This document shows positions 39,429-49,114 of a stretch of DNA of 64,000 nucleotides, in pieces. Position 1 is the stretch's first letter. Each line of letters opens with the position of its first letter. Location of the stretch: the NCBI GenBank assembly GCA_021820485.1, contig JAKADO010000002.1, positions 1 through 64,000 of the forward strand, written 5' to 3'. This DNA comes from Bacillota bacterium (lineage in GTDB: Bacteria > Bacillota > Sulfobacillia > Sulfobacillales > Sulfobacillaceae). The notes under the pieces are model-generated. The model did not search any database. It saw only the letters and a program-made list of their open reading frames with translations, and was not told the origin of the DNA. Made by a program: the position numbers and the translations under genes.

Positions 39429-39744
39429 GCCTCGTCCTCCTATGTGCAGTGCACGCCGCTAACGACCAAACCGAACATGCACCATCATCTCCCCCAACCA
39501 CTGGGGCTATACCCTAAAACCCTCATAGATCATCGAAACAATGCCTCCCTGTTTGCATTCTTTTCATAGTTTGTCATGATATACTCAGATCAGCTTCCCT
39601 TTCATAGCATTCCCTAAGGCGATGGAATCCGCCGCGGATGATGTATCCGAAACTACCCACGCTGGGTTGATGACTCCTGATCTGGATGTCGGAGTCACTC
39701 CTGGTGTCTTCCGGCATGCAAATTTGGTGTCGGAGGTGCGCCGG
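39429..39744. other. intergenic region before the Ehr-like operon
   Basis: No gene is supported here. A TATACT (39573-39578) after TGTCATGA could be a -10, with only a poor -35 (TTCTTT, 16 bp upstream). An open frame from ATG 39622 runs into the first complex gene, but its first 41 residues do not resemble the family and have no ribosome site. Confidence 0.4.
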
Positions 39745-40683
39745 TTGAATCTGTACGTTGCTCAGGGACTGCAAATCTTCTTTGTACTGGGCTTTTCTCC
39801 CCTGTTAAAAGGAATTATGGAACGGTATCGCGCCCGCGTAGCGGGGCGACACGGTCCCCCTGTATGGCAGCCCTATCGCGACCTGTGGAAGTGGTCCCAT
39901 AAGGAGACCGTGCGCAGCCACGAGACCAGCTTCATTTCGGAATGGGCTCCCATTGCCTACTTCATTGCACCGTTGCTGGTGGCCATGCTTATCCCTGTTC
40001 TGACAGCATTTCCCCTTCCCTTCGCCTGGATGGGCGACATGTTGGCGGGCGGCATGATCTTAGGGGCGGGGGGCGTGGCGCTCCTCTTGGCCGCCCTCGA
40101 TAGCGGCAGCGTATATCCGGCACTGGGGGTGAGCCGCATCCGGCTGATTGCCGCCTTCACCGAGCCCTTGTCATTGCTGTTGGTGTTCATTGCAGCGTCG
40201 GCGGCCAAGACCACCATTCCCTTTATCGTCAATCAGACGCTTTCCGCGCCCTCCTGGCTGTTCACCCCCGCTCATCTATTCATTGTCGTGGGGTGGTTTC
40301 TACTGCTCCTCGCGGAAGCCGGCCGCATTCCCGTAGACAATCCCTCGACATCGCAGGAACTCTCCATGATTGATCCGGCGAGAACCTTTGAGTCGAGCGG
40401 CACCGATCTGGTGCTCTATGAATGGGGGGGATGGATGAAGTTTCTCATTCTCAGCGTGATTCTGTGCAACGTGCTGGCCACCCCATGGGGATTGGCGGGG
40501 TCTTCCCACTGGCAATCCATCCTTGAGGCCGTGGGCGCCACCGCATTCAAAACCACCGTGCTCGGTCTGGCGGTCATCAGCTTTGAAGCCGGTTTTGCCA
40601 AGTTGCGTCTCATTCGCAACGTGGACTTTCTGATGGCTGCCATTGCCCTCGCGGCCCTTGGCGGGTTGGTTGCCAATCTGTAG
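39745..40683 (+). CDS. HyfC/NuoH-like membrane subunit of Ehr-type complex
   Basis: Proton-channel-linking membrane subunit of 312 residues. The start is TTG 39745 (LNLYVAQGLQIFF), with GGAGG eight bases upstream. Family features are FSPLLKGIMERYRARVAGRHGPPVWQPYRDLWK, the loop GVSRIRLIAAFTEPLSLLLVF, and the conserved acidic loop EAGRIPVDNPSTSQELSMID that in complex I lines the quinone/E-channel region. Eight hydrophobic segments are seen. First of six co-directional genes for a complex related to hydrogenase-4 and complex I. Confidence 0.9.
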   Translation: MNLYVAQGLQIFFVLGFSPLLKGIMERYRARVAGRHGPPVWQPYRDLWKWSHKETVRSHETSFISEWAPIAYFIAPLLVAMLIPVLTAFPLPFAWMGDMLAGGMILGAGGVALLLAALDSGSVYPALGVSRIRLIAAFTEPLSLLLVFIAASAAKTTIPFIVNQTLSAPSWLFTPAHLFIVVGWFLLLLAEAGRIPVDNPSTSQELSMIDPARTFESSGTDLVLYEWGGWMKFLILSVILCNVLATPWGLAGSSHWQSILEAVGATAFKTTVLGLAVISFEAGFAKLRLIRNVDFLMAAIALAALGGLVANL

Positions 40684-40703
40684 CCAATGGGAGGAGAGGT
40701 TCT

Positions 40704-41333
40704 GTGATTGCCTTGTCTCAAGTGGCCTTTGGCCTTATCTGGCTTACCACGGCGGGCCTGCTCATTGTCAAAAGCCCGCATTCCGCCGCGGCCCTCTACC
40801 GTCTGCAGGCGATGGCCGAGGCTCTCGTGGCCGCCGCTGCCGCCCTCGCCGGGGCACGCCCCTGGCTCTGGCTGAGTGTGGTGCTGATCCTCGTGATTAA
40901 GGTGGCCGTTATTCCACCCGTGGTGATGCGGGGACTCGGCACACGACGCACGGACTACGGCGGAGATGGGGCTTTCGGAATCGGCGCACTACTCCTCATC
41001 GCCGCGCTGCTCAGCGTGGGAGGGTTCCTTTTGGGGCGGTTGGGATTGCCTCACCCCGCGCTCATGGGCATGGGTTTCGCGGCGCTGTTTGTGGCCTTGG
41101 TGCATGCCTCGTCCCGCTATCAGGTCTGGAGCATGCTGTGGGCCCTGCTGAGCCTAGACACCGTGGTCGGGGCCATCACGCTCATTTGGGGTAGGGGCCT
41201 TCCTGAGATGGCAGACGTGGCCATTGACTTGGTTAGCCTTGGTCTAGCGTTGGTTCTCGCCTATCTTGCTCAGCGCATTGACCGGATCATGCACGCGCGG
41301 GACATTCGGGAAATGGAGGATCTGGTCGGATGA
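40704..41333 (+). CDS. HyfE-like membrane subunit
   Basis: Hydrogenase-4 component E homologue, 209 residues with about six membrane helices; the C-terminal half is related to NuoK. GTG start at 40704 with GGGAGGAGAGG upstream. Recognisable segments are LLIVKSPHSAAALYRLQAMAEAL in pattern, VVLILVIKVAVIPPVVMRGLG and a closing basic/acidic tail MHARDIREMEDLVG. Its stop overlaps the next ATG by 4 bases. Likely part of the proton-pumping arm. Confidence 0.85.
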   Translation: MIALSQVAFGLIWLTTAGLLIVKSPHSAAALYRLQAMAEALVAAAAALAGARPWLWLSVVLILVIKVAVIPPVVMRGLGTRRTDYGGDGAFGIGALLLIAALLSVGGFLLGRLGLPHPALMGMGFAALFVALVHASSRYQVWSMLWALLSLDTVVGAITLIWGRGLPEMADVAIDLVSLGLALVLAYLAQRIDRIMHARDIREMEDLVG

Positions 41334-42772
41334 CAACAGCAATGTGGGTCATTCCCAGCGGAATGGCGGTGCTTAGCCTCATAGCTCTGCTTCTACCGAC
41401 ACACTGGACCCACGTCGTGCGTGTCCTGGCGTCTCTCTACCTCGCAGGACTGCTGGCGACCCAGATTCTCAATGTGTGGCGCCCCATGGATCCGGTGTCT
41501 TCCTGGTTCTTTATCACCGTTGCGGTATTGGCTCTCTTCGGCATTTGGTACTCAGGGCCCTACATTGCCCGCGAAGCCGAAGCGCATCACTGGCCCGCCT
41601 CGCGCGTGCAAAAATATTACGCAGGATTTCTGTTGTTTCTTGCCTCACTCATGGCCTTGGCGCTTCTGAGCAATTATGTCTTCCTGTGGGCCGCCATGGA
41701 GGTGGCGACGCTGTCGAGCGTTCTCCTCGTGGCCCTGCCGGATCAACGCGCCTCCATTGAAGCCGCATGGAAGTACGTGATGGTGACCGAAGTGGGCGGT
41801 CTAATCGCTCTCCTGGGCACCATTCTGACGCTCCACGCCATCGGTGTCCCCCTGATGACATGGAATCCCGCGCCAAAGGGCCATTTGGTGGGCGGCATGA
41901 GTGCTCATTGGGCGCTCATCGGTGCGTACCTGGCACTAATCGGTTATGCAGCCAAAGCTGGACTGGCGCCCTTTCACACTTGGCTTCCCGATGCTCACAG
42001 CGAAGCCCCGGCGCCTGTCTCGGCCCTCCTCTCCGGACTGAAGCTTTCGGCGGCCGTCCTGATCATTTATCGTCTCGACCGACTGGCGGCCGTGGCCGTG
42101 CCCGCCCCCTATCTCCGAATGTCCCTCATCGTCCTGGGACTATTGTCGTTGGCTGTGGCGGCGGTCTTTCTCGCTTTTCAACGCGACCTCAAAAGACTCT
42201 GGGCCTATTCCACCGTAGAGCACATTGGCCTGATTAGCCTCGGAGTCGGGTTCGGCGGAATAGCCCTGGTTGGCGCGATGCTGCACATCTGGACCCACGC
42301 GGCGAGCAAGACGCTCTTGTTTCACAATGCTGGTACGGTCCGCATCCTATACCACAGCTCCAATGCCGAGCAGGGAGCCGGCAACATGCTTCGGCGCACC
42401 CCTTGGACTGGAGGCCTCTTGGCATTAGGTTCGGCTGCCATTGCCGGACTGCCGCCGTTCGCGCCGTTTTGGAGCGAGTGGCTCATATTGGCCGGCGGCT
42501 TCCACCAAGCGGCTGATCGTGGCCTTGCCCTCGTCGCGGCACTATTGCTGGTGATTATCTTCATTGCTGTGGCCCGCCGCATTCCCTCTTGGCTTTTTGC
42601 ACCGGGCCAGTCAGGATTTCGCGAAGCCCAACCGATACGAGAGCCCGCCAGCCTCATCCTGCCTAACGCGGTATTGGGGATTGTGGTTGTGGCGAGCGGA
42701 CTTGGCCTTCCTTGGCTGGCTCACCCCCTTTGGCACAGCCTGGTCACGGAACTCGCATCAGTCCACCTCTAG
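41330..42772 (+). CDS. HyfF/NuoN-like antiporter subunit
   Basis: Antiporter-like proton pump subunit, 480 residues. The conserved helix-5 glutamate is in LWAAMEVATLSSVLL, the helix-7 lysine in YAAKAGLAPFHTWLPDAHSEAPAPVSALLSG, and the helix-8 lysine region is FQRDLKRLWAYSTVEHIGLI. These charged residues form the proton path in complex I relatives, so pumping is expected to be retained. It overlaps hyfE by ATGA and is followed by the large subunit after 25 bp. Confidence 0.92.
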   Translation: MTTAMWVIPSGMAVLSLIALLLPTHWTHVVRVLASLYLAGLLATQILNVWRPMDPVSSWFFITVAVLALFGIWYSGPYIAREAEAHHWPASRVQKYYAGFLLFLASLMALALLSNYVFLWAAMEVATLSSVLLVALPDQRASIEAAWKYVMVTEVGGLIALLGTILTLHAIGVPLMTWNPAPKGHLVGGMSAHWALIGAYLALIGYAAKAGLAPFHTWLPDAHSEAPAPVSALLSGLKLSAAVLIIYRLDRLAAVAVPAPYLRMSLIVLGLLSLAVAAVFLAFQRDLKRLWAYSTVEHIGLISLGVGFGGIALVGAMLHIWTHAASKTLLFHNAGTVRILYHSSNAEQGAGNMLRRTPWTGGLLALGSAAIAGLPPFAPFWSEWLILAGGFHQAADRGLALVAALLLVIIFIAVARRIPSWLFAPGQSGFREAQPIREPASLILPNAVLGIVVVASGLGLPWLAHPLWHSLVTELASVHL

Positions 42773-42797
42773 CGATTCTCTGAAAGGAGTTGATCCC

Positions 42798-44228
42798 ATG
42801 TCCAGCACAACATTCAAAAGCACGGGCAAGACCGAGATGCGTCTCGACATGGCAACGTGGCTGAACGCCTGGCAATCCTTGCGCGACCGTAATCACGAAA
42901 CCGTTCTCCTTGATGGTGACGGCATGAAGCTCACTGCCCTGCTGATGAACTGCTCTACGGGAAGCATGGTGGCCATCGAGACGCCGGTGCCGTCCTTACC
43001 ATCACCGTCCCGCATGCCCGCTCAACCTTCCCACCTTGGCATGCAGGATACGCTGATTGCGGAGCAGTGGTTGGCAAATGGCTCGCCATCACTGGCTTGG
43101 AAGACGCCGGAATTGCCGCCTGTTCGCGGAAAGGGACTCTTCACCTATCCCTTGGGCCCGGTGCGCGCCGACGTCTCGGAGTCTCTTTACTATGAATTGA
43201 CAGTGATGGGCGACGAAATCATCCGCCTGAACCTAAACCCCGGATTTAAGCGACGGCATATTCGGGAGTGGGTGCGCGGCCGGACGATCGACGAGGCCAT
43301 GCCCATCATCTCTCGCTTTACCACCACCTCCAACGTTCACCACACTCTGGCCATGGCCTTGGCAGTGGAGGACGCCTGGAACCTCCCGATAGCGATGGAG
43401 GTGCATGAAACCCGCACCTTGCTGGCTGAATTGGAACGGGCTGAAAGCCATCTCGGCGATTTGGCGCTGTTGGCGGTGTCGACCGGTCTTCCTGTTCCCC
43501 AAATGGAATATCTGCATCTGAAGGAGACATTGCTGCGGGTGAACAGCCGATTGTTCGGCCATCGTTACCTGCGGGACTCCATTGTTCCGGGGGGTCTTGA
43601 CAGCACGTTGTGGCCAGGCGGGGTCCATCCCCGCCACGAGGCAACCGTTGTCGCCCGTGTGCGCGATGAGGCGGCCCGCATTGCCGACGGGTTGATGCGA
43701 ACCTCCTCCTTTCTTGACCGCTTGCATGGGGCGGGCACCGTTCCAAAAGACACCATCTCCGCAATGCGACCCGTGGGACCCATCGGGCGAGCCTCAGGCA
43801 GGGCCTTCGATGTGCGCACTGTGCGGTCCTATGCCGCCTATCTGGACGCCGACCTGAGAATTCCCGTCGAGCAGAATGCGGATGCCTACGCCCGATTCCG
43901 CATCCGCGTCCGGGAACTCGACGAAAGCTTATCACTCATTCAGAGGATGCTCGGTGCATGGACACCCCCTGCCGTCGCATCTACACCCCGGGGGCTCGGT
44001 GTTCCCGTGCGGGGCCATGGCGTCGGCATTGTTGAGGCGCCTCGCGGGATGCTCGCCTATCGTCTCCAAGTCGACTCGAGCGGTCGGATCGGTCACTTGG
44101 GTGTGGCCACCCCGTCGCAGCGAAACTGGCCCACCCTGCCGTCGGCCATGGCCAACGGCAACATTCTCCAGGATTTCCCCATCGTCGACGCCAGCTTCGC
44201 GCTGTCCGTCGCTGGATGGGATGGATGA
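42798..44228 (+). CDS. Ehr-type large subunit (NuoD/HyfG homologue without Ni ligands)
   Basis: A 476-residue homologue of the NuoC-D/HyfG catalytic subunit, from the ATG at 42798 with AAAGGAG upstream. The first 130 residues correspond to a degenerate 30-kDa-like domain. The core has GFKRRHIREWVRG, then SRFTTTSNVHHTLAMALAVEDAW, where group 4 hydrogenases carry RxCGxC, and it ends FPIVDASFALSVAGWDG, where hydrogenases carry DPCxxC. Only one Cys is present in the whole protein, so no NiFe site can form. As in complex I, a quinone or another acceptor could occupy that cavity. This is the defining trait of Ehr complexes. Confidence 0.88.
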   Translation: MSSTTFKSTGKTEMRLDMATWLNAWQSLRDRNHETVLLDGDGMKLTALLMNCSTGSMVAIETPVPSLPSPSRMPAQPSHLGMQDTLIAEQWLANGSPSLAWKTPELPPVRGKGLFTYPLGPVRADVSESLYYELTVMGDEIIRLNLNPGFKRRHIREWVRGRTIDEAMPIISRFTTTSNVHHTLAMALAVEDAWNLPIAMEVHETRTLLAELERAESHLGDLALLAVSTGLPVPQMEYLHLKETLLRVNSRLFGHRYLRDSIVPGGLDSTLWPGGVHPRHEATVVARVRDEAARIADGLMRTSSFLDRLHGAGTVPKDTISAMRPVGPIGRASGRAFDVRTVRSYAAYLDADLRIPVEQNADAYARFRIRVRELDESLSLIQRMLGAWTPPAVASTPRGLGVPVRGHGVGIVEAPRGMLAYRLQVDSSGRIGHLGVATPSQRNWPTLPSAMANGNILQDFPIVDASFALSVAGWDG

Positions 44229-44243
44229 CAAGGGGGGGTTAGC

Positions 44244-44807
44244 ATGTATTACTGGCACTGGCTTCGTCACATCTTGCGTGCGCCAGATACGTCTGGATAC
44301 CCCACGGAGCCCGATGCTGCCGTGGCCGCCATGGCAAATCCAGACGCCATCGGCCGACTCGCACCGCCTCAGGGAACCTTCCCGCGGCGCGCCGCGGCCC
44401 TGCGCCATATCGATGGGGGATCCTGCAATGGCTGCGAGGCCGAACTGGGACTCCTTGCAAGCCCTGACTACGACTTATCGCGCTACGGGTTTAGTTTCAC
44501 CCCATCGCCCAAACACGCGGACCTCCTGGTTGTGACAGGTGTCATCACACCATCCATGGCGCCCATCATTCAGGCCGTATACGAACAGATGGGTCATCCA
44601 AAACGCGTCATCGCGCTTGGGTCATGCGCCATCGATGGGTGGGTTTTCCGGGGCGCGCCGGAGGTGCTGGGAAGCCTCGACGGCATCGTCCCCGTCACGG
44701 TGGCGATTGCCGGATGCCCACCAACCCCGGGCGATATCTTGCGGGGCCTTCTGACCGCGGTAGACGGCATGGCTCCCGAATCGCTGAGAGAGGGGAATTC
44801 GAAATGA
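44244..44807 (+). CDS. Ehr-type small Fe-S subunit (NuoB/HyfI homologue)
   Basis: A 187-residue subunit holding one 4Fe-4S cluster. The four cysteines are in GGSCNGCEAEL, ALGSCAIDG and IAGCPPTPGDIL. The CxxCE spacing is that of hydrogenase small subunits, not the tandem CC of NuoB. It follows the large subunit by 15 bp and overlaps the next gene by ATGA. Electrons must reach this cluster from a donor that is not encoded in the cluster, since no ferredoxin-like HyfA/HyfH/NuoI subunit is present. Confidence 0.92.
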   Translation: MYYWHWLRHILRAPDTSGYPTEPDAAVAAMANPDAIGRLAPPQGTFPRRAAALRHIDGGSCNGCEAELGLLASPDYDLSRYGFSFTPSPKHADLLVVTGVITPSMAPIIQAVYEQMGHPKRVIALGSCAIDGWVFRGAPEVLGSLDGIVPVTVAIAGCPPTPGDILRGLLTAVDGMAPESLREGNSK

Positions 44808-46852
44808 ACGGCGTGGCGTGGATCTTTCTGTGGCTCGCCTATTTGGCGGTTGGGATCGGGGGAGCCGCCCTTTGGTCGCGTGTGCGTGTGCAGTGGGTGC
44901 GCCCCTGGCTCTCCATAGCTCTCGGGATTGGCGCCTTCATTCTCTTGATAATGACTGGCTCGCTGCTGACCCACCAGACGAGCCGCCTAGTCCTTCCTCA
45001 TCCATGGCCGGCGTTGGTGGCCTCCCCGCTCCCAATGGCCCCTCTATGGGCCGTAATGGGTGGTCTCCTGTTTTTCTCCGCCACGCTTTTAACCGTCAAC
45101 AGGCCCGACTCCCATCGCGTGCATTACGCCTTGCTGCCGCTGTTGGCGATAGTGGGCATCTACTTGTGGAGTGGCGACGGCCTCTTGTTGCTCGTTAGCT
45201 GGGAACTCATTTCCGGCGTCAGCTATCTGGGACTCGTCACCACCCGACGCGCGCGTCCGGTGTGGAATGCCGGTTGGGTGCTCTTGGCCTTGTCGGAACT
45301 GGGCGGCATGCTGCTCTTGGTCGCATTGGTCTGGCTAACCCCGGGGCACGGTCCGTTGATGAACGATGCCCTCCCCCAGTTGGCGCGCATTGCCGCGCAC
45401 CAATCGCCCGCACTAATCAATATCCTCATGATGCTGACCATCGTGGCTTTTGGCGTCAAAGCCGGACTCTTCCCCGTCATGATTTGGATGCCCATGGCTG
45501 AGCCGGAGGCTCCGGGCGTTGTGGCGGGGCTTTTTTCCGGCCTTATCACGGCACTCGCCATCGCTGGCATTCTGGCGATGGTTCCCCTTGCGGGCCACAG
45601 TCTGACCTGGGCGGTGGCTATCATCATTCTTGGGGTGTTGGGAGCCTTTTCCGGGGCACTGTACAGCGCAGTGTCCCGCCACGTAAAACGGGTGCTCGCC
45701 TATTCCACCTTGGAAGTACTAGGAATGGTCTTTGTGGGGTTAGGCATCTGGCGCCTCCTCTCCATCGAGGCGCCGAACAACGCGGCCTCCACCCTTGCAC
45801 TGGATGCCGCCATCGTCCTCCTCATCATCCACGCTGGCGCCAAGTTCATCCTCTTTGCGGGCACAGACTTCACAGGCAGATGGGGACACACGCTGGATGC
45901 GTTGGGAGGACTTCACCGGGCATCGCGAACCGTAACCGTCCTCACGCTGATAGCTGTGCTGGGACTCGGGGCTGTTCCCCCCTTGGGCGGGTTTGTCGGC
46001 GAGTGGCTCCTATTGGAAAGCCTCCTCAAACCCCTGGCTCCCTCCGGTCAGGCCGTTCTGCATGTCGCGCTGATCGCCGCGGGCATCATGCTGGCCATCA
46101 CCGCAGCTTTGGCTGTCACCGCATACTTGCGCTGGTATGGATTCATCTTTCTGGGACAATACCGGGGTCTTAAGGCGATAGACCATCGGCCCTCAACCAC
46201 CTGGTTGTCGGGGCTCGCACTGCCGCTGGCTTTGGTGGTGGTCACAGGGCCGGGAGTGCCTTGGCTGCTGCCGTGGATCAATGCGCGGCTGGGCTCGTTT
46301 TTAACCGCCAGGAGCGCTGTCATCGCACCGAGCTTCCACCATCCGGGCAGTGCCGCCCCCTTAGTCCCCATTGGCGTCAACCTTGTGCCGGCGCCAGGGG
46401 CGCCCGGCACCGCCTTCTTTCCGCAAGCATTCAATGTCGGCGACCCCTATGTGCTCTTCTGGATGGGCCTAGTCCTGGGCGCCACGGTGGCCGCGATTCG
46501 CTGGATTCTGCGCCGCCGCCGCGGGGTGCGGTTGGTTCGCCCGTGGAATGGAGGGACCGCCGTGATATCCCGGAACGCCTCATGGTCTGCGGAAGGCTTT
46601 GTCCATCCGTTGCGACTAGCATTTGCCCGGTTCTATGGTCTCGAGCGCACCCGCAAGCAGTCGGCCGGAGCCCATTTCTACCGGCACACCATCATCTACC
46701 GCGTAGAAGAACAACTCTATAGGCCGCTGGTGTCCGCGGCTGTGTGGGTAGGCAGGATGGGAAGGCGGATCCAGTCTGGCAGGGTTACCCAATATGTGGC
46801 ATATGTCTGGATTTTCGCGCTCGTGGGTATTATGGTAGGCATAATGCGATAA
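44804..46852 (+). CDS. HyfB/NuoL-like antiporter subunit
   Basis: Large proton-pump subunit of 682 residues, similar to HyfB in length. Helix-5 Glu is in LLLVSWELISGVSYLG, the helix-7 Lys in VAFGVKAGLFPVMIWMPMAEPEAPGVVAGLF, helix-8 region in SRHVKRVLAYSTLEVLG and a C-terminal GGFVGEWLLLESL. A 170-residue tail with a basic loop and a last membrane helix (YVAYVWIFALVGIMVGIM) resembles the extended C terminus of HyfB. ATG at 44804; a longer frame in the same phase starts inside the small-subunit gene but is not used. Last gene of the complex. Confidence 0.92.
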   Translation: MNGVAWIFLWLAYLAVGIGGAALWSRVRVQWVRPWLSIALGIGAFILLIMTGSLLTHQTSRLVLPHPWPALVASPLPMAPLWAVMGGLLFFSATLLTVNRPDSHRVHYALLPLLAIVGIYLWSGDGLLLLVSWELISGVSYLGLVTTRRARPVWNAGWVLLALSELGGMLLLVALVWLTPGHGPLMNDALPQLARIAAHQSPALINILMMLTIVAFGVKAGLFPVMIWMPMAEPEAPGVVAGLFSGLITALAIAGILAMVPLAGHSLTWAVAIIILGVLGAFSGALYSAVSRHVKRVLAYSTLEVLGMVFVGLGIWRLLSIEAPNNAASTLALDAAIVLLIIHAGAKFILFAGTDFTGRWGHTLDALGGLHRASRTVTVLTLIAVLGLGAVPPLGGFVGEWLLLESLLKPLAPSGQAVLHVALIAAGIMLAITAALAVTAYLRWYGFIFLGQYRGLKAIDHRPSTTWLSGLALPLALVVVTGPGVPWLLPWINARLGSFLTARSAVIAPSFHHPGSAAPLVPIGVNLVPAPGAPGTAFFPQAFNVGDPYVLFWMGLVLGATVAAIRWILRRRRGVRLVRPWNGGTAVISRNASWSAEGFVHPLRLAFARFYGLERTRKQSAGAHFYRHTIIYRVEEQLYRPLVSAAVWVGRMGRRIQSGRVTQYVAYVWIFALVGIMVGIMR

Positions 46853-46897
46853 GAGAACGCGTTGGCCTTTTTCGAGGGAAAGGACAGGGAGAAAACA

Positions 46898-47263
46898 ATG
46901 TCCGCTAAAATCACCGGCCAGGCTCACCGTCTGCGGATTTTCATTGGAGAGTCCGCCCGCTATCATCACCAGCCGCTGTACCACGCCATTTTGCTGGAGG
47001 CCCGCAAAATGGGACTGGCGGGCGCCACTGTCATGCGCGCCTTCGAAGGATTTGGTCCATCAAGTCGAATCCACACGACAAATGTGCTGGATCTATCAGG
47101 CGATCTGCCCATTGTCATTGAGATTGTTGACTCGGAAGAGTACCTTTCGCAGTTCCTGCCCATCTTGGACACCATGATTCAATCTGGTCTGGTCACCATT
47201 GACCCGGTCAATATTGTGCAATATGGCCCGCCTAAGAACCGGCACCATGAAGACATTGGTTGA
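46898..47263 (+). CDS. DUF190 protein (PII-like fold)
   Basis: A 121-residue cytosolic protein matching DUF190: LRIFIGESARYHHQPLYHAILLEARKMGLAGATVMRAFEGFGPSS and ending with DLPIVIEIVDSEE. The fold is ferredoxin-like and PII-related, suggesting a signalling or regulatory role. GGGAG precedes the ATG at 46898. It lies 45 bp after the last complex gene, so it may be read with that operon, and just before the crcB promoter. A second DUF190 gene (48293) is about two-thirds identical by eye and lies after crcB. Confidence 0.88.
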   Translation: MSAKITGQAHRLRIFIGESARYHHQPLYHAILLEARKMGLAGATVMRAFEGFGPSSRIHTTNVLDLSGDLPIVIEIVDSEEYLSQFLPILDTMIQSGLVTIDPVNIVQYGPPKNRHHEDIG

Positions 47264-47311: not shown

Positions 47312-47340
47312 TTGACAGACGATAGGTTTTCCGTTAATCT
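47312..47340 (+). promoter_or_regulatory. promoter of the crcB-crcB-DUF190 unit
   Basis: Perfect -35 TTGACA (47312-47317), 17-bp spacer, and TAATCT (47335-47340) as -10. Transcription would start near 47347, exactly where the candidate riboswitch begins. Confidence 0.6.
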
Positions 47341-47347
47341 GACAGAA

Positions 47348-47410
47348 GGTAATTGAAGACTTACCTCTCTCGTCGAAGAGAAGCCGCTGAACCAGCTGAT
47401 GACTCCTACC
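47348..47410 (+). ncRNA. fluoride-riboswitch-like (crcB motif) leader
   Basis: The 3' half, AAGCCGCTG-aac-CAGCTGATGACTCCTAC (47381-47409), closely matches the conserved 3' part of the crcB RNA motif, with P3 GCTG/CAGC. The 5' half can form P1 GGTAA/TTACC and a P2-like CTCT/AGAG hairpin. However, the P1 loop lacks the GAUG and the GGAGU stretch that would pair with ACUCC, so the match is incomplete. Position (at the transcription start, upstream of crcB) supports the call. A TGG-CACC/GGTG-CCA hairpin at 47416-47433 may be the expression platform. Confidence 0.55.
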
Positions 47411-47487
47411 ATGCTTGGACACCGCGGTGCCCAGTGGGATGAGCGTCAGTTGTTTGTTTGTCTGTCGGATTGACGAGATATGAGAGG

Positions 47488-47865
47488 GTGGGTAAGGTTT
47501 TAGTCAACTTGGCGGTTGTCTTTGGGGGAGGCGCGCTCGGCGCCGTTTCCCGTTATCTGCTGGGATTTTGGATCACCCAAAGGACTCGTGCCCGCCTGCC
47601 GCTGGGCACGTTGGCGGTCAATCTCCTCGGCACCCTGATTATCGGCATTCTGACTCGAGATGCGATGGTGCTGGGCCAACGGACGCTCCTCTTTGCTGAC
47701 ATGGGCTTCGTCGGCGCCTTTACGACGTTTTCGAGCCTTTCCTACGAAACGCTGATGCTGCTGGAGCAAGGGCTCTACTTGGAGGCCTTTTTGAACCCCG
47801 CCGTCAGTGTCTTGCTGGGTCTTTTTGGAGTTTCGGTCGGCATGCTCATCGGAGCCGCCGTATGA
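47488..47865 (+). CDS. crcB: fluoride channel subunit CrcB/Fluc (first copy)
   Basis: Small four-helix membrane protein that exports fluoride. Family features are VVFGGGALGAVSRYLLGFWI, GTLAVNLLGTLIIGIL and GFVGAFTTFSSLSYETLMLLEQG. The start is uncertain: GTG 47488 is used (125 residues), with TTG 47470 or 47509 as alternatives; none has an ideal ribosome site. The stop overlaps the second crcB (ATGA). Tandem crcB genes usually make a heterodimeric, antiparallel channel. Confidence 0.9.
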   Translation: MGKVLVNLAVVFGGGALGAVSRYLLGFWITQRTRARLPLGTLAVNLLGTLIIGILTRDAMVLGQRTLLFADMGFVGAFTTFSSLSYETLMLLEQGLYLEAFLNPAVSVLLGLFGVSVGMLIGAAV

Positions 47866-48296
47866 TGAACCTTCTATGGATCGCGCTGGGCGGCGGACTG
47901 GGGGCGTTGGCCCGCTACGGTCTTTCCGGCTTAATCTCAACGCAGCCCTTGCCTTACAATATTTTCATCATTAACGTGAGCGGAAGCTTCCTCATCGCCG
48001 TGGTGATGACGCTATCCTTGGAGTACGGATGGCTGTCCGAACGTGGGCGCCTTTTTCTCTCGGTGGGCGTGTTGGGCGGCTACACCACATTTTCCACGTT
48101 TATGCTGGGGATTTATCTGCTCTTATCCCACCACGCCCTTATTCGGGCCTACACCTATACCATCGGGAGTCTCCTCTTCGGGTTGGCTTTTTGCTGGCTG
48201 GGCGTCGTCGCAACGCGTCGCGCAGTGGAAGCCCTCATCGCCCGGAAGAGCCCACCGGAGGACCCTGACCCTGCTCACGAAGGAGCCATGAAGTGA
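47862..48296 (+). CDS. crcB: fluoride channel subunit CrcB/Fluc (second copy)
   Basis: Partner of the first CrcB, 144 residues. It has IALGGGLGALARYGLSGLI, YNIFIINVSGSFLIAVVM with the conserved Asn, and GVLGGYTTFSTFMLG, where the TTFST segment lines the fluoride pore. A 20-residue charged C-terminal tail (ARKSPPEDPDPAHEG) is extra. It overlaps both neighbours, and the DUF190 gene after it begins inside its last codons. Confidence 0.93.
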   Translation: MMNLLWIALGGGLGALARYGLSGLISTQPLPYNIFIINVSGSFLIAVVMTLSLEYGWLSERGRLFLSVGVLGGYTTFSTFMLGIYLLLSHHALIRAYTYTIGSLLFGLAFCWLGVVATRRAVEALIARKSPPEDPDPAHEGAMK

Positions 48297-48643
48297 CAAA
48301 CCATACATCGGAACCGACCCTGCGGCTGCGCATTTACATTGGCGAGTCCAGCCGCCATCACCACCAGCCGCTCTATCACGCTATCGTCCTCAAGGCTCGG
48401 GAAATGGGTCTCGCGGGCATTACCGTGATGCGCGCCGTGGAAGGCTTTGGCCCGTCGAGCCGCATACATGCTGCCAACTTGCTGTCGCTCTCCGGGGACT
48501 TGCCCATTGTCATCGAGGCTGTGGACCTGGAAGAACGGATTAATGCGCTGCTCGAGGCTCTGGAGGGCATGATCGACCACGGTCTAATCACGACGGACGC
48601 GGTTCATGTGCGCAGATACGGCTCATCCCACACCATGTCCTAG
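48293..48643 (+). CDS. DUF190 protein (second copy)
   Basis: A 116-residue DUF190 protein translated from a GTG that overlaps the crcB stop. LRIYIGESSRHHHQPLYHAIVLKAREMGLAGITVMRAVEGFGPSSRIH is the conserved core. DUF190 genes are commonly next to or fused with crcB, so a role as a fluoride-channel regulator is probable but unproven. Its similarity to the copy at 46898 suggests local duplication around the crcB pair. Confidence 0.88.
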   Translation: MTNHTSEPTLRLRIYIGESSRHHHQPLYHAIVLKAREMGLAGITVMRAVEGFGPSSRIHAANLLSLSGDLPIVIEAVDLEERINALLEALEGMIDHGLITTDAVHVRRYGSSHTMS

Positions 48644-48658
48644 CACGGGACGGGTCCT

Positions 48659-49114
48659 TTACTCGCGAAGCGTCGCCATTAGGCGCTTCGGGTTCAGCAG
48701 CAACTCCAACGCACGCTCGACGGAGGGTACCATGATGTCTGATGCCTCCAATGCGCGGGACGACGCACCCTCCGGCCCTACCACCAGGATGGCCAAATCA
48801 GCCGCCTGAAACATCTTCCGATCGTTGACGCCGTTTCCCACGGCTGCCACGCCGCCGGACAGCCCACCGACCAGCGCCTCTTTGTCATCCCCATTGCGGA
48901 CAATTTGCCGGGAGATGCCCATCTCCTCGGCAAAGCGCGCGACCGTACCAAACGTGTCCGCCGTCGCAATGATGGTGTTGTATTGCACTGCCACCTGCTG
49001 CAAGAGATGCCGCGTCGCCAGAGACACTTGGCCATCTTCCGCCAATGTGCCGTTAAAGTCCAACACGGCATGCTGCAGGCTCATTAACCCGCGTCCGGGT
49101 ATGTCAATGGTCAT
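48659..49114 (-). CDS. HAD-family hydrolase (soluble P-type-ATPase-like)
   Basis: A 151-residue HAD-fold protein. Motif I is AVLDFNGTLAED, the form seen in the COG4087 soluble P-type ATPase-like group; motif II is near ATADTFG and motifs III/IV are VGNGVNDRKMFQAADLAI. There is no cap or membrane domain. GGGAG lies nine bases before the ATG at 49114. It converges on the second DUF190 gene with 15 bp between stops. Phosphatase activity on an unknown small substrate is likely. Confidence 0.82.
   Translation of the reverse strand: MTIDIPGRGLMSLQHAVLDFNGTLAEDGQVSLATRHLLQQVAVQYNTIIATADTFGTVARFAEEMGISRQIVRNGDDKEALVGGLSGGVAAVGNGVNDRKMFQAADLAILVVGPEGASSRALEASDIMVPSVERALELLLNPKRLMATLRE

Follow-up and report, generated by a model that had tools for sequence, protein, structure and literature searches.

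A six-gene operon at positions 39745-46852 of the 64,000-nt window analysed here (positions 1-64,000 of contig JAKADO010000002.1, Bacillota bacterium assembly GCA_021820485.1) encodes a relative of hydrogenase 4 and complex I without a nickel-iron (NiFe) site and, judged by the RNA that precedes it, is a member of the fluoride-riboswitch regulon. The source genome is Sulfobacillus-like, with S. harzensis, S. benefaciens and S. acidophilus as relatives. A role of the complex in fluoride resistance is considered very probable, because a riboswitch precedes the operon across its clade, the complex occurs in genomes without CrcB, some of which also lack CLC, one member has lost the cysteines of its iron-sulfur cluster, and the residues of the proton path are kept. 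It is likely to translocate ions and not to carry out H2 or quinone chemistry, given the retained proton-path charges, an electron wire that shrinks within the clade and clade-specific positions that lie mostly in the NuoH-like subunit. As a whole and leaving residue detail aside, the best explanation, with odds that seem somewhat better than even, is a fluoride-inducible membrane complex derived from a Hyf/complex I-type module; direct H+-coupled fluoride export is the preferred mechanism, to which we assign a probability of about 0.45.

The first-pass annotation of this stretch had described six contiguous genes for HyfC-, E-, F-, G-, I- and B-like subunits, which the open reading frames (ORFs) and their Pfam and NCBIfam matches confirm, all on the forward strand. 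Subunit C (39745-40683, TTG start) is a HyfC/HycD/NuoH-like membrane anchor (Pfam NADHdh, 6e-25; phmmer match to HycD 7z0s_D, 6.9e-21), and subunit E (40704-41333, GTG start) is a HyfE-like membrane protein that has no Pfam match and is recognised by its position in the block and by alignment with HyfE. Subunits F (41330-42772, HyfF/NuoM-like; Proton_antipo_M, 7.8e-43) and B (44804-46852, HyfB-like; Proton_antipo_M, 1.6e-31) are of the antiporter type, with hydrogenase 4 subunit F and hydrogenase 4 subunit B as their respective best NCBIfam matches. Subunit G (42798-44228) is a HyfG/HycE-like large subunit of NuoC+NuoD fold without nickel cysteines, matching Complex1_49kDa and, below threshold, NiFeSe_Hases, and subunit I (44244-44807) is the HyfI/NuoB-like small subunit (Oxidored_q6, 2.4e-26). 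The start of C is supported by a GGAGG Shine-Dalgarno sequence at 39732-39736; an upstream ATG at 39622 was rejected as start since it falls within the RNA aptamer. Nearly all relatives inspected retain the order C-E-F-G-I-B. The earlier assignment to the energy-converting hydrogenase-related (Ehr) type was right and had been published for Sulfobacillus: Justice et al. 2014 describe NiFe-less complexes of the same kind, composed of NuoH-, HyfB/F-, HyfE-, NuoD- and NuoB-like subunits without nickel-binding motifs, and call them Ehr complexes of unknown function (PMC4378227).

The aptamer in the operon leader (RF01734, crcB motif; 39609-39686, forward strand) lies directly upstream of C on the same strand and scores 40.7 bits against a gathering cut-off of 34, with an E-value of 7.9e-8 computed for the whole window and a match covering positions 1-64 of the 64 in the model. 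A possible expression platform (39672-39736, forward strand) can be proposed from the sequence and its minimum-energy fold, in which the aptamer strand GACTCC (39672-39677) could pair with GGAGTC (39691-39696) and the Shine-Dalgarno sequence with CTTCC (39708-39712). A second fluoride riboswitch (47339-47415, forward strand; 29.6 bits, E 6e-5) precedes crcB; its score is below the gathering cut-off, and it was also recovered in the whole-genome search, which found these two riboswitches and no other. Detection relied on covariance models, a simple regular expression having been dropped since it missed many true sites. Both riboswitches, as well as the DUF190 and CrcB genes behind the operon, had been overlooked in the first-pass annotation.

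The linkage of riboswitch and complex was surveyed by comparing HyfG-like hits with riboswitch hits in the same 61 related genomes, most of them drafts. Among operons of the window's type, 33 of 36 are preceded on the same strand by a riboswitch, which lies 3.1-3.4 kb upstream of G and thus immediately before C; the other three are cut off at contig ends. Operons of a second type have a riboswitch upstream in 12 of 14 cases; of the two exceptions, one has its genes in a BCEFGI-like order, as sister Ehr complexes do, and the other follows a riboswitch operon in tandem as a second copy. No riboswitch was found in these genomes at three-cysteine homologs (0 of 16) or at NuoD-like genes (0 of 29), and the association between riboswitch and operon type has a Fisher p of about 1e-21. 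Plasmid loci of the clade in Burkholderia, Caballeronia, Mycobacterium and Alicyclobacillus carry the riboswitch without exception (4/4), and none of 11 plasmid loci of the sister Ehr (BCEFGI-type) does. In the tree, the riboswitch-linked large subunits form a single clade (100/98 support, recovered in 99% of bootstrap trees), two members of which have long branches. A NuoH-like profile run against 398 Bacillota genomes served as negative control and retrieved mainly genuine group 4 hydrogenases and Ehr complexes of the sister group; the many weaker homologs in these all lacked a riboswitch at the complex, and the one strong hit from outside the family (G424) had it. Two further observations concern large subunits. 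A third Sulfobacillus complex (large subunits of loci L072-L076) keeps three of the four nickel cysteines (RxC[AG]xD ... CYSC), with Asp for the fourth, and has no riboswitch, and on a plasmid of Alicyclobacillus sp. ALC3 a lone large subunit (L086:9396-11098) directly follows a fluoride riboswitch and has no genes for further subunits next to it.

Because riboswitches as well as DUF190 and CrcB genes adjoin it, the Ehr-like operon is, on the evidence of its neighbourhood, one half of a two-unit fluoride locus. The genes 3' of subunit B follow in the order DUF190-CrcB-CrcB-DUF190, all on the forward strand: a DUF190 (PII-like) protein (46862-47263, start probably the ATG at 46899; 4.2e-37), which is likely the last gene of the riboswitch operon, the CrcB/Fluc fluoride channel subunits 1 (47458-47865; CRCB, 3.4e-24) and 2 (47862-48296; CRCB, 5.1e-26), and a second DUF190 protein (48293-48643; 9e-37). 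The DUF190 proteins thus placed accompany the complex and CrcB alike, and a Burkholderia DUF190 homolog also matches P-II (PF00543), which suggests a PII-like regulator of fluoride transport. A small HAD-like hydrolase (48659-49114, reverse strand) adjoins the fluoride genes of the window, and similar HAD genes recur in the fluoride islands of relatives (L096, L098). In these islands riboswitches stand beside genes for pyrophosphatase, enolase, CrcB, DUF190, MutS-like and acetate-transporter-like proteins, while a CLC protein is encoded near the complex on the Burkholderia plasmid and an enolase on the Mycobacterium plasmid; such classes of neighbours are known from fluoride-resistance operons (PMC5533749; PMC11139923). 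Thirteen genomes, spread across genera and including a whole family, have the complex without any CrcB. CLC is missing as well from three of them (G010, G021, G036), and in five (G003, G021, G034, G039, G040) riboswitches were found at the complex operons only. A genome with a fluoride response and the complex, and without a known exporter, is what a direct exporter would predict.

The earlier claim that both nickel cysteine pairs are missing from the large subunit holds for all four residues; the placement given for the C-terminal pair (DASFAL) was five residues off, which leaves the conclusion unaffected. In an alignment with E. coli HycE/HyfG and NuoCD, of the kind that the first-pass annotation had proposed for group 4 hydrogenases and NuoD, T175 and S178 occupy the N-terminal nickel-cysteine positions of G and S470 and G473 the C-terminal ones, DPCYSC of HycE being aligned with ALSVAG. 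T175 and S178 are invariant in 15 aligned sequences, and the S470 position is mostly Ser or Thr. The His and Tyr that bind the quinone head group in complex I are missing too, with Ser and Thr in their positions. Several hydrogenase-type residues whose functional roles are described in PMC9474812 are retained, namely Glu128 (HycE Glu193), His182 and Arg416 (HycE Arg478), while the canopy Asp529 of HycE is lost. The AlphaFold model, which covers G alone and has low confidence in the loops that face I and C, matches HycE 7z0s_E with a Z of 35.2 over 421 residues. The hydrogenase-style CxxCE motif reported for the small subunit is borne out by C61, C64, C128 and C158, which stand in hydrogenase spacing and are invariant in 15 aligned sequences; no further cluster of cysteines is present in the small subunit of the window type. 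Likewise, the proton path of the antiporter subunits is conserved in alignment as the first pass had said, with E134/K219/K295/K347/E400 in B and E124/K209/K288/K327/E383 in F, and across the clade the proton-path charges of C, F and B are kept except for B K295, which is changed in plasmid members.

The lack of a ferredoxin-like subunit and of maturation genes, also noted in the first pass, is upheld: no HyfA/HyfH-like ORF was seen in the block, either in the window or in the relatives, and the suggested genome search for hyp genes gave no match to HypC (PF01455) or to the NiFe hydrogenase large subunit (NiFeSe_Hases, PF00374) anywhere in the genome, which is 92% complete, with positive controls. 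A separate true NuoD is encoded elsewhere in the genome (G000:C93). Across the six subunits Pfam finds complex I-type domains only, and no homology to Fluc/CrcB or CLC-F. The operon product thus combines group 4-like large and small subunits and NuoH- and antiporter-like subunits with missing nickel CxxC pairs, as in Ehr, and lacks the RxCGxC and DPCxxC motifs, Hyp genes and HyfA/HyfH of group 4 [NiFe] hydrogenase, hydrogenase 4 and formate hydrogenlyase, as well as the quinone His/Tyr of NuoD in respiratory complex I. The view of the complex as a NiFe-less group 4 relative therefore stands, and to treat it as an oxidoreductase whose electron donor and acceptor are open is probably the wrong question in light of the riboswitch, the CrcB-less genomes and the cysteine-less member.

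Comparison within the clade indicates that the electron wire is being lost. A fused ferredoxin domain is found with two clusters in Burkholderia members, as an apparent one-cluster remnant in the second type and not at all in the window type. In the small subunit of the Mycobacterium branderi plasmid (L088:11093-11884) all four cysteines of the proximal cluster are gone (GSNGSDEWEI, VGTDAI, PGAPASP), while a fused single-cluster ferredoxin remnant is retained and the other five subunits are intact ORFs. In a tandem arrangement (L071:3658-18644), a second-type E-F-G-I-B set that has no C of its own comes after a window-type operon, as if the two sets shared one NuoH-like subunit; the first small subunit there has Ser in place of Cys61. 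From such cases electron transfer may be dispensable. A sister Ehr on a Meiothermus silvanus plasmid (L103:10763-11632), which has no riboswitch, also has a small subunit without any of the four cluster cysteines, so cluster loss occurs outside the fluoride clade too. Conservation is concentrated in subunit C, which holds 8 of the 15 positions that are specific to the clade relative to other Ehr complexes (p 6e-4) and is better conserved than any other subunit among operons of the window type, with 69% identity as against 38-58% for the others; in sister Ehr complexes C is no more conserved than the other subunits. The clade-specific residues of C include H218, D251, R254, N283 and F130/F201 (numbered in the ORF from 39622), and alignment places the Asp/Arg pair in the loop expected to couple the active-site chamber to the membrane arm, a coupling loop that has been described for the superfamily (PMC7684303).

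In the mechanism that we prefer, fluoride would bind the riboswitch and switch the operon on, upon which the six subunits would assemble as a hydrogenase-4-shaped complex; in its former NiFe/quinone chamber, between subunits G, I and C, redox chemistry on which function depends would no longer take place. The antiporter-type F and B would draw on the proton gradient, and fluoride would leave, either as F- or as HF, through the NuoH-like C along a path lined by the clade-specific residues listed above. The complex could then be viewed, tentatively and with somewhat less assurance than the mechanism itself, as the third class of fluoride exporters, in which a machine of six subunits on the complex I/hydrogenase-4 chassis has abandoned redox chemistry and uses the proton gradient to drive fluoride out. 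Several points weigh against this proposal. Transport of fluoride by the complex is inferred from sequence, and the residues of C were picked by conservation alone. Nearly all other members of the clade conserve the four cluster cysteines, so that electron transfer may still be of importance in the organism of the window, and in Burkholderia members there is a fused ferredoxin domain with two clusters. That CrcB and CLC are missing was judged from draft genomes, in which single cases could be gaps, and genomes without either could possess another, unrecognised exporter. Moreover, the operon often coexists with CrcB and need not encode an exporter.

The main rival to direct export is a fluoride-induced auxiliary proton pump, which would restore pH and proton-motive force and leave fluoride untouched. 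In an acidophile, HF carries protons into the cell and F- leaves by the channel, which amounts to a futile proton leak; electrons passing from a soluble donor via the single [4Fe-4S] cluster would drive protons out. The intact proton-path residues of C, F and B and the conserved cluster cysteines of the window type suit such a pump, as do the reports that acidophiles are very sensitive to fluoride (PMC12831704) and that fluoride stress lowers the proton-motive force, Na+/H+ antiporters being the next commonest riboswitch genes after exporters (PMC11139923). However, no electron acceptor site is recognisable, since nickel cysteines and quinone His/Tyr are both missing, the electron wire was lost repeatedly (no ferredoxin domain in the window type, one cysteine in L071, four in M. 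branderi), and the dispensability of CrcB is left unexplained, so we regard the pump as rather unlikely. A further alternative, an oxidoreductase of the Ehr type that works with, for instance, formate dehydrogenase and is tied to fluoride only indirectly, through metabolic re-routing, appears improbable. Ehr with formate dehydrogenase has been proposed elsewhere (PMC6349859), and this genome encodes molybdopterin oxidoreductases, three of which (G000:C89:29067, G000:C3:69070, G000:C24:49221) contain one in-frame TGA each and are possibly selenocysteine formate dehydrogenases; yet no formate dehydrogenase is linked to the operon, about 20 relatives share no conserved redox neighbour, and the tight riboswitch linkage is specific to the clade and missing from sister Ehr. 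A redox partner drawn from the neighbourhood was rejected, as the flanking genes of the inspected relatives are varied and mostly housekeeping.

Sulfane sulfur reduction at the proximal cluster, as in MBS, was also considered, given that the quinone His/Tyr and some of the nickel cysteines are missing from MBS as well (PMC7684303) and that Sulfobacillus is a sulfur oxidiser. It was rejected as highly improbable: MBS needs a three-cysteine cluster with a shortened motif, whereas here there are four cysteines in hydrogenase CxxC spacing and no gap relative to MbhJ, the ferredoxin subunit is missing, and the fluoride control would stay unexplained. Least probable, to a degree that makes it almost negligible, is a genuine formate hydrogenlyase or hydrogenase 4, the name used in the fluoride-riboswitch literature and supported by a history of annotation in which crcB RNAs are placed ahead of 'formate hydrogen lyase' genes (PMC2864571; PMC11139923); the missing nickel cysteines, HypC, NiFe hydrogenase and HyfA/HyfH already contradict it. 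A CO2-concentrating role, for which there is a precedent in the hyf genes beside carbonic anhydrase in A. caldus (PMC3826726), was set aside as no carbonic anhydrase neighbour was seen here; such complexes are not mentioned in PMC10880623.

Compared with known systems, the complex shares with E. coli hydrogenase 4/formate hydrogenlyase (7z0s) the subunit folds, the Glu of the beta1-beta2 loop, His182, the canopy Arg and the proton-path residues, but lacks the nickel ligands, the canopy Asp529, HyfA/HyfD/HyfH and the maturation genes. Like P. furiosus MBS (6u8y), it is a NiFe-less superfamily member without quinone His/Tyr, whereas in MBS ferredoxin reduces a wire of three clusters and the catalytic cluster is held by three cysteines (PMC7684303). 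With Fluc/CrcB channels and CLC-F antiporters it has the riboswitch and the gene neighbourhoods in common, but no sequence relation, and it has six subunits and can occur without either. The accessible text on the Sulfobacillus Ehr complexes (PMC4378227) mentions neither a fluoride riboswitch nor DUF190/CrcB neighbours nor a separate clade. The crcB RNAs before 'formate hydrogen lyase' genes were reported by Weinberg 2010 (PMC2864571), and a 2024 review repeats the link and explains it as formate oxidation or metabolic adaptation (PMC11139923). Those genes probably encode the present type of complex: they too are Hyf/Hyc-like genes under RF01734, but in the examples studied here the NiFe site is missing, and those of the window type lack a ferredoxin subunit. 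In the open-access literature we found no paper that joins NiFe-less Ehr complexes with the fluoride-riboswitch 'formate hydrogen lyase', and none that links DUF190 or NADH-dehydrogenase-like genes to fluoride riboswitches.

Two puzzles meet in this operon, the function of Ehr and the recurrence of 'formate hydrogen lyase' as a common riboswitch gene, and both are made directly testable. The question also matters for bioleaching, a setting in which acidophiles such as Sulfobacillus are limited by fluoride. If the complex does export fluoride, it would constitute a new class of exporter and a complex I relative that works without electron transfer.

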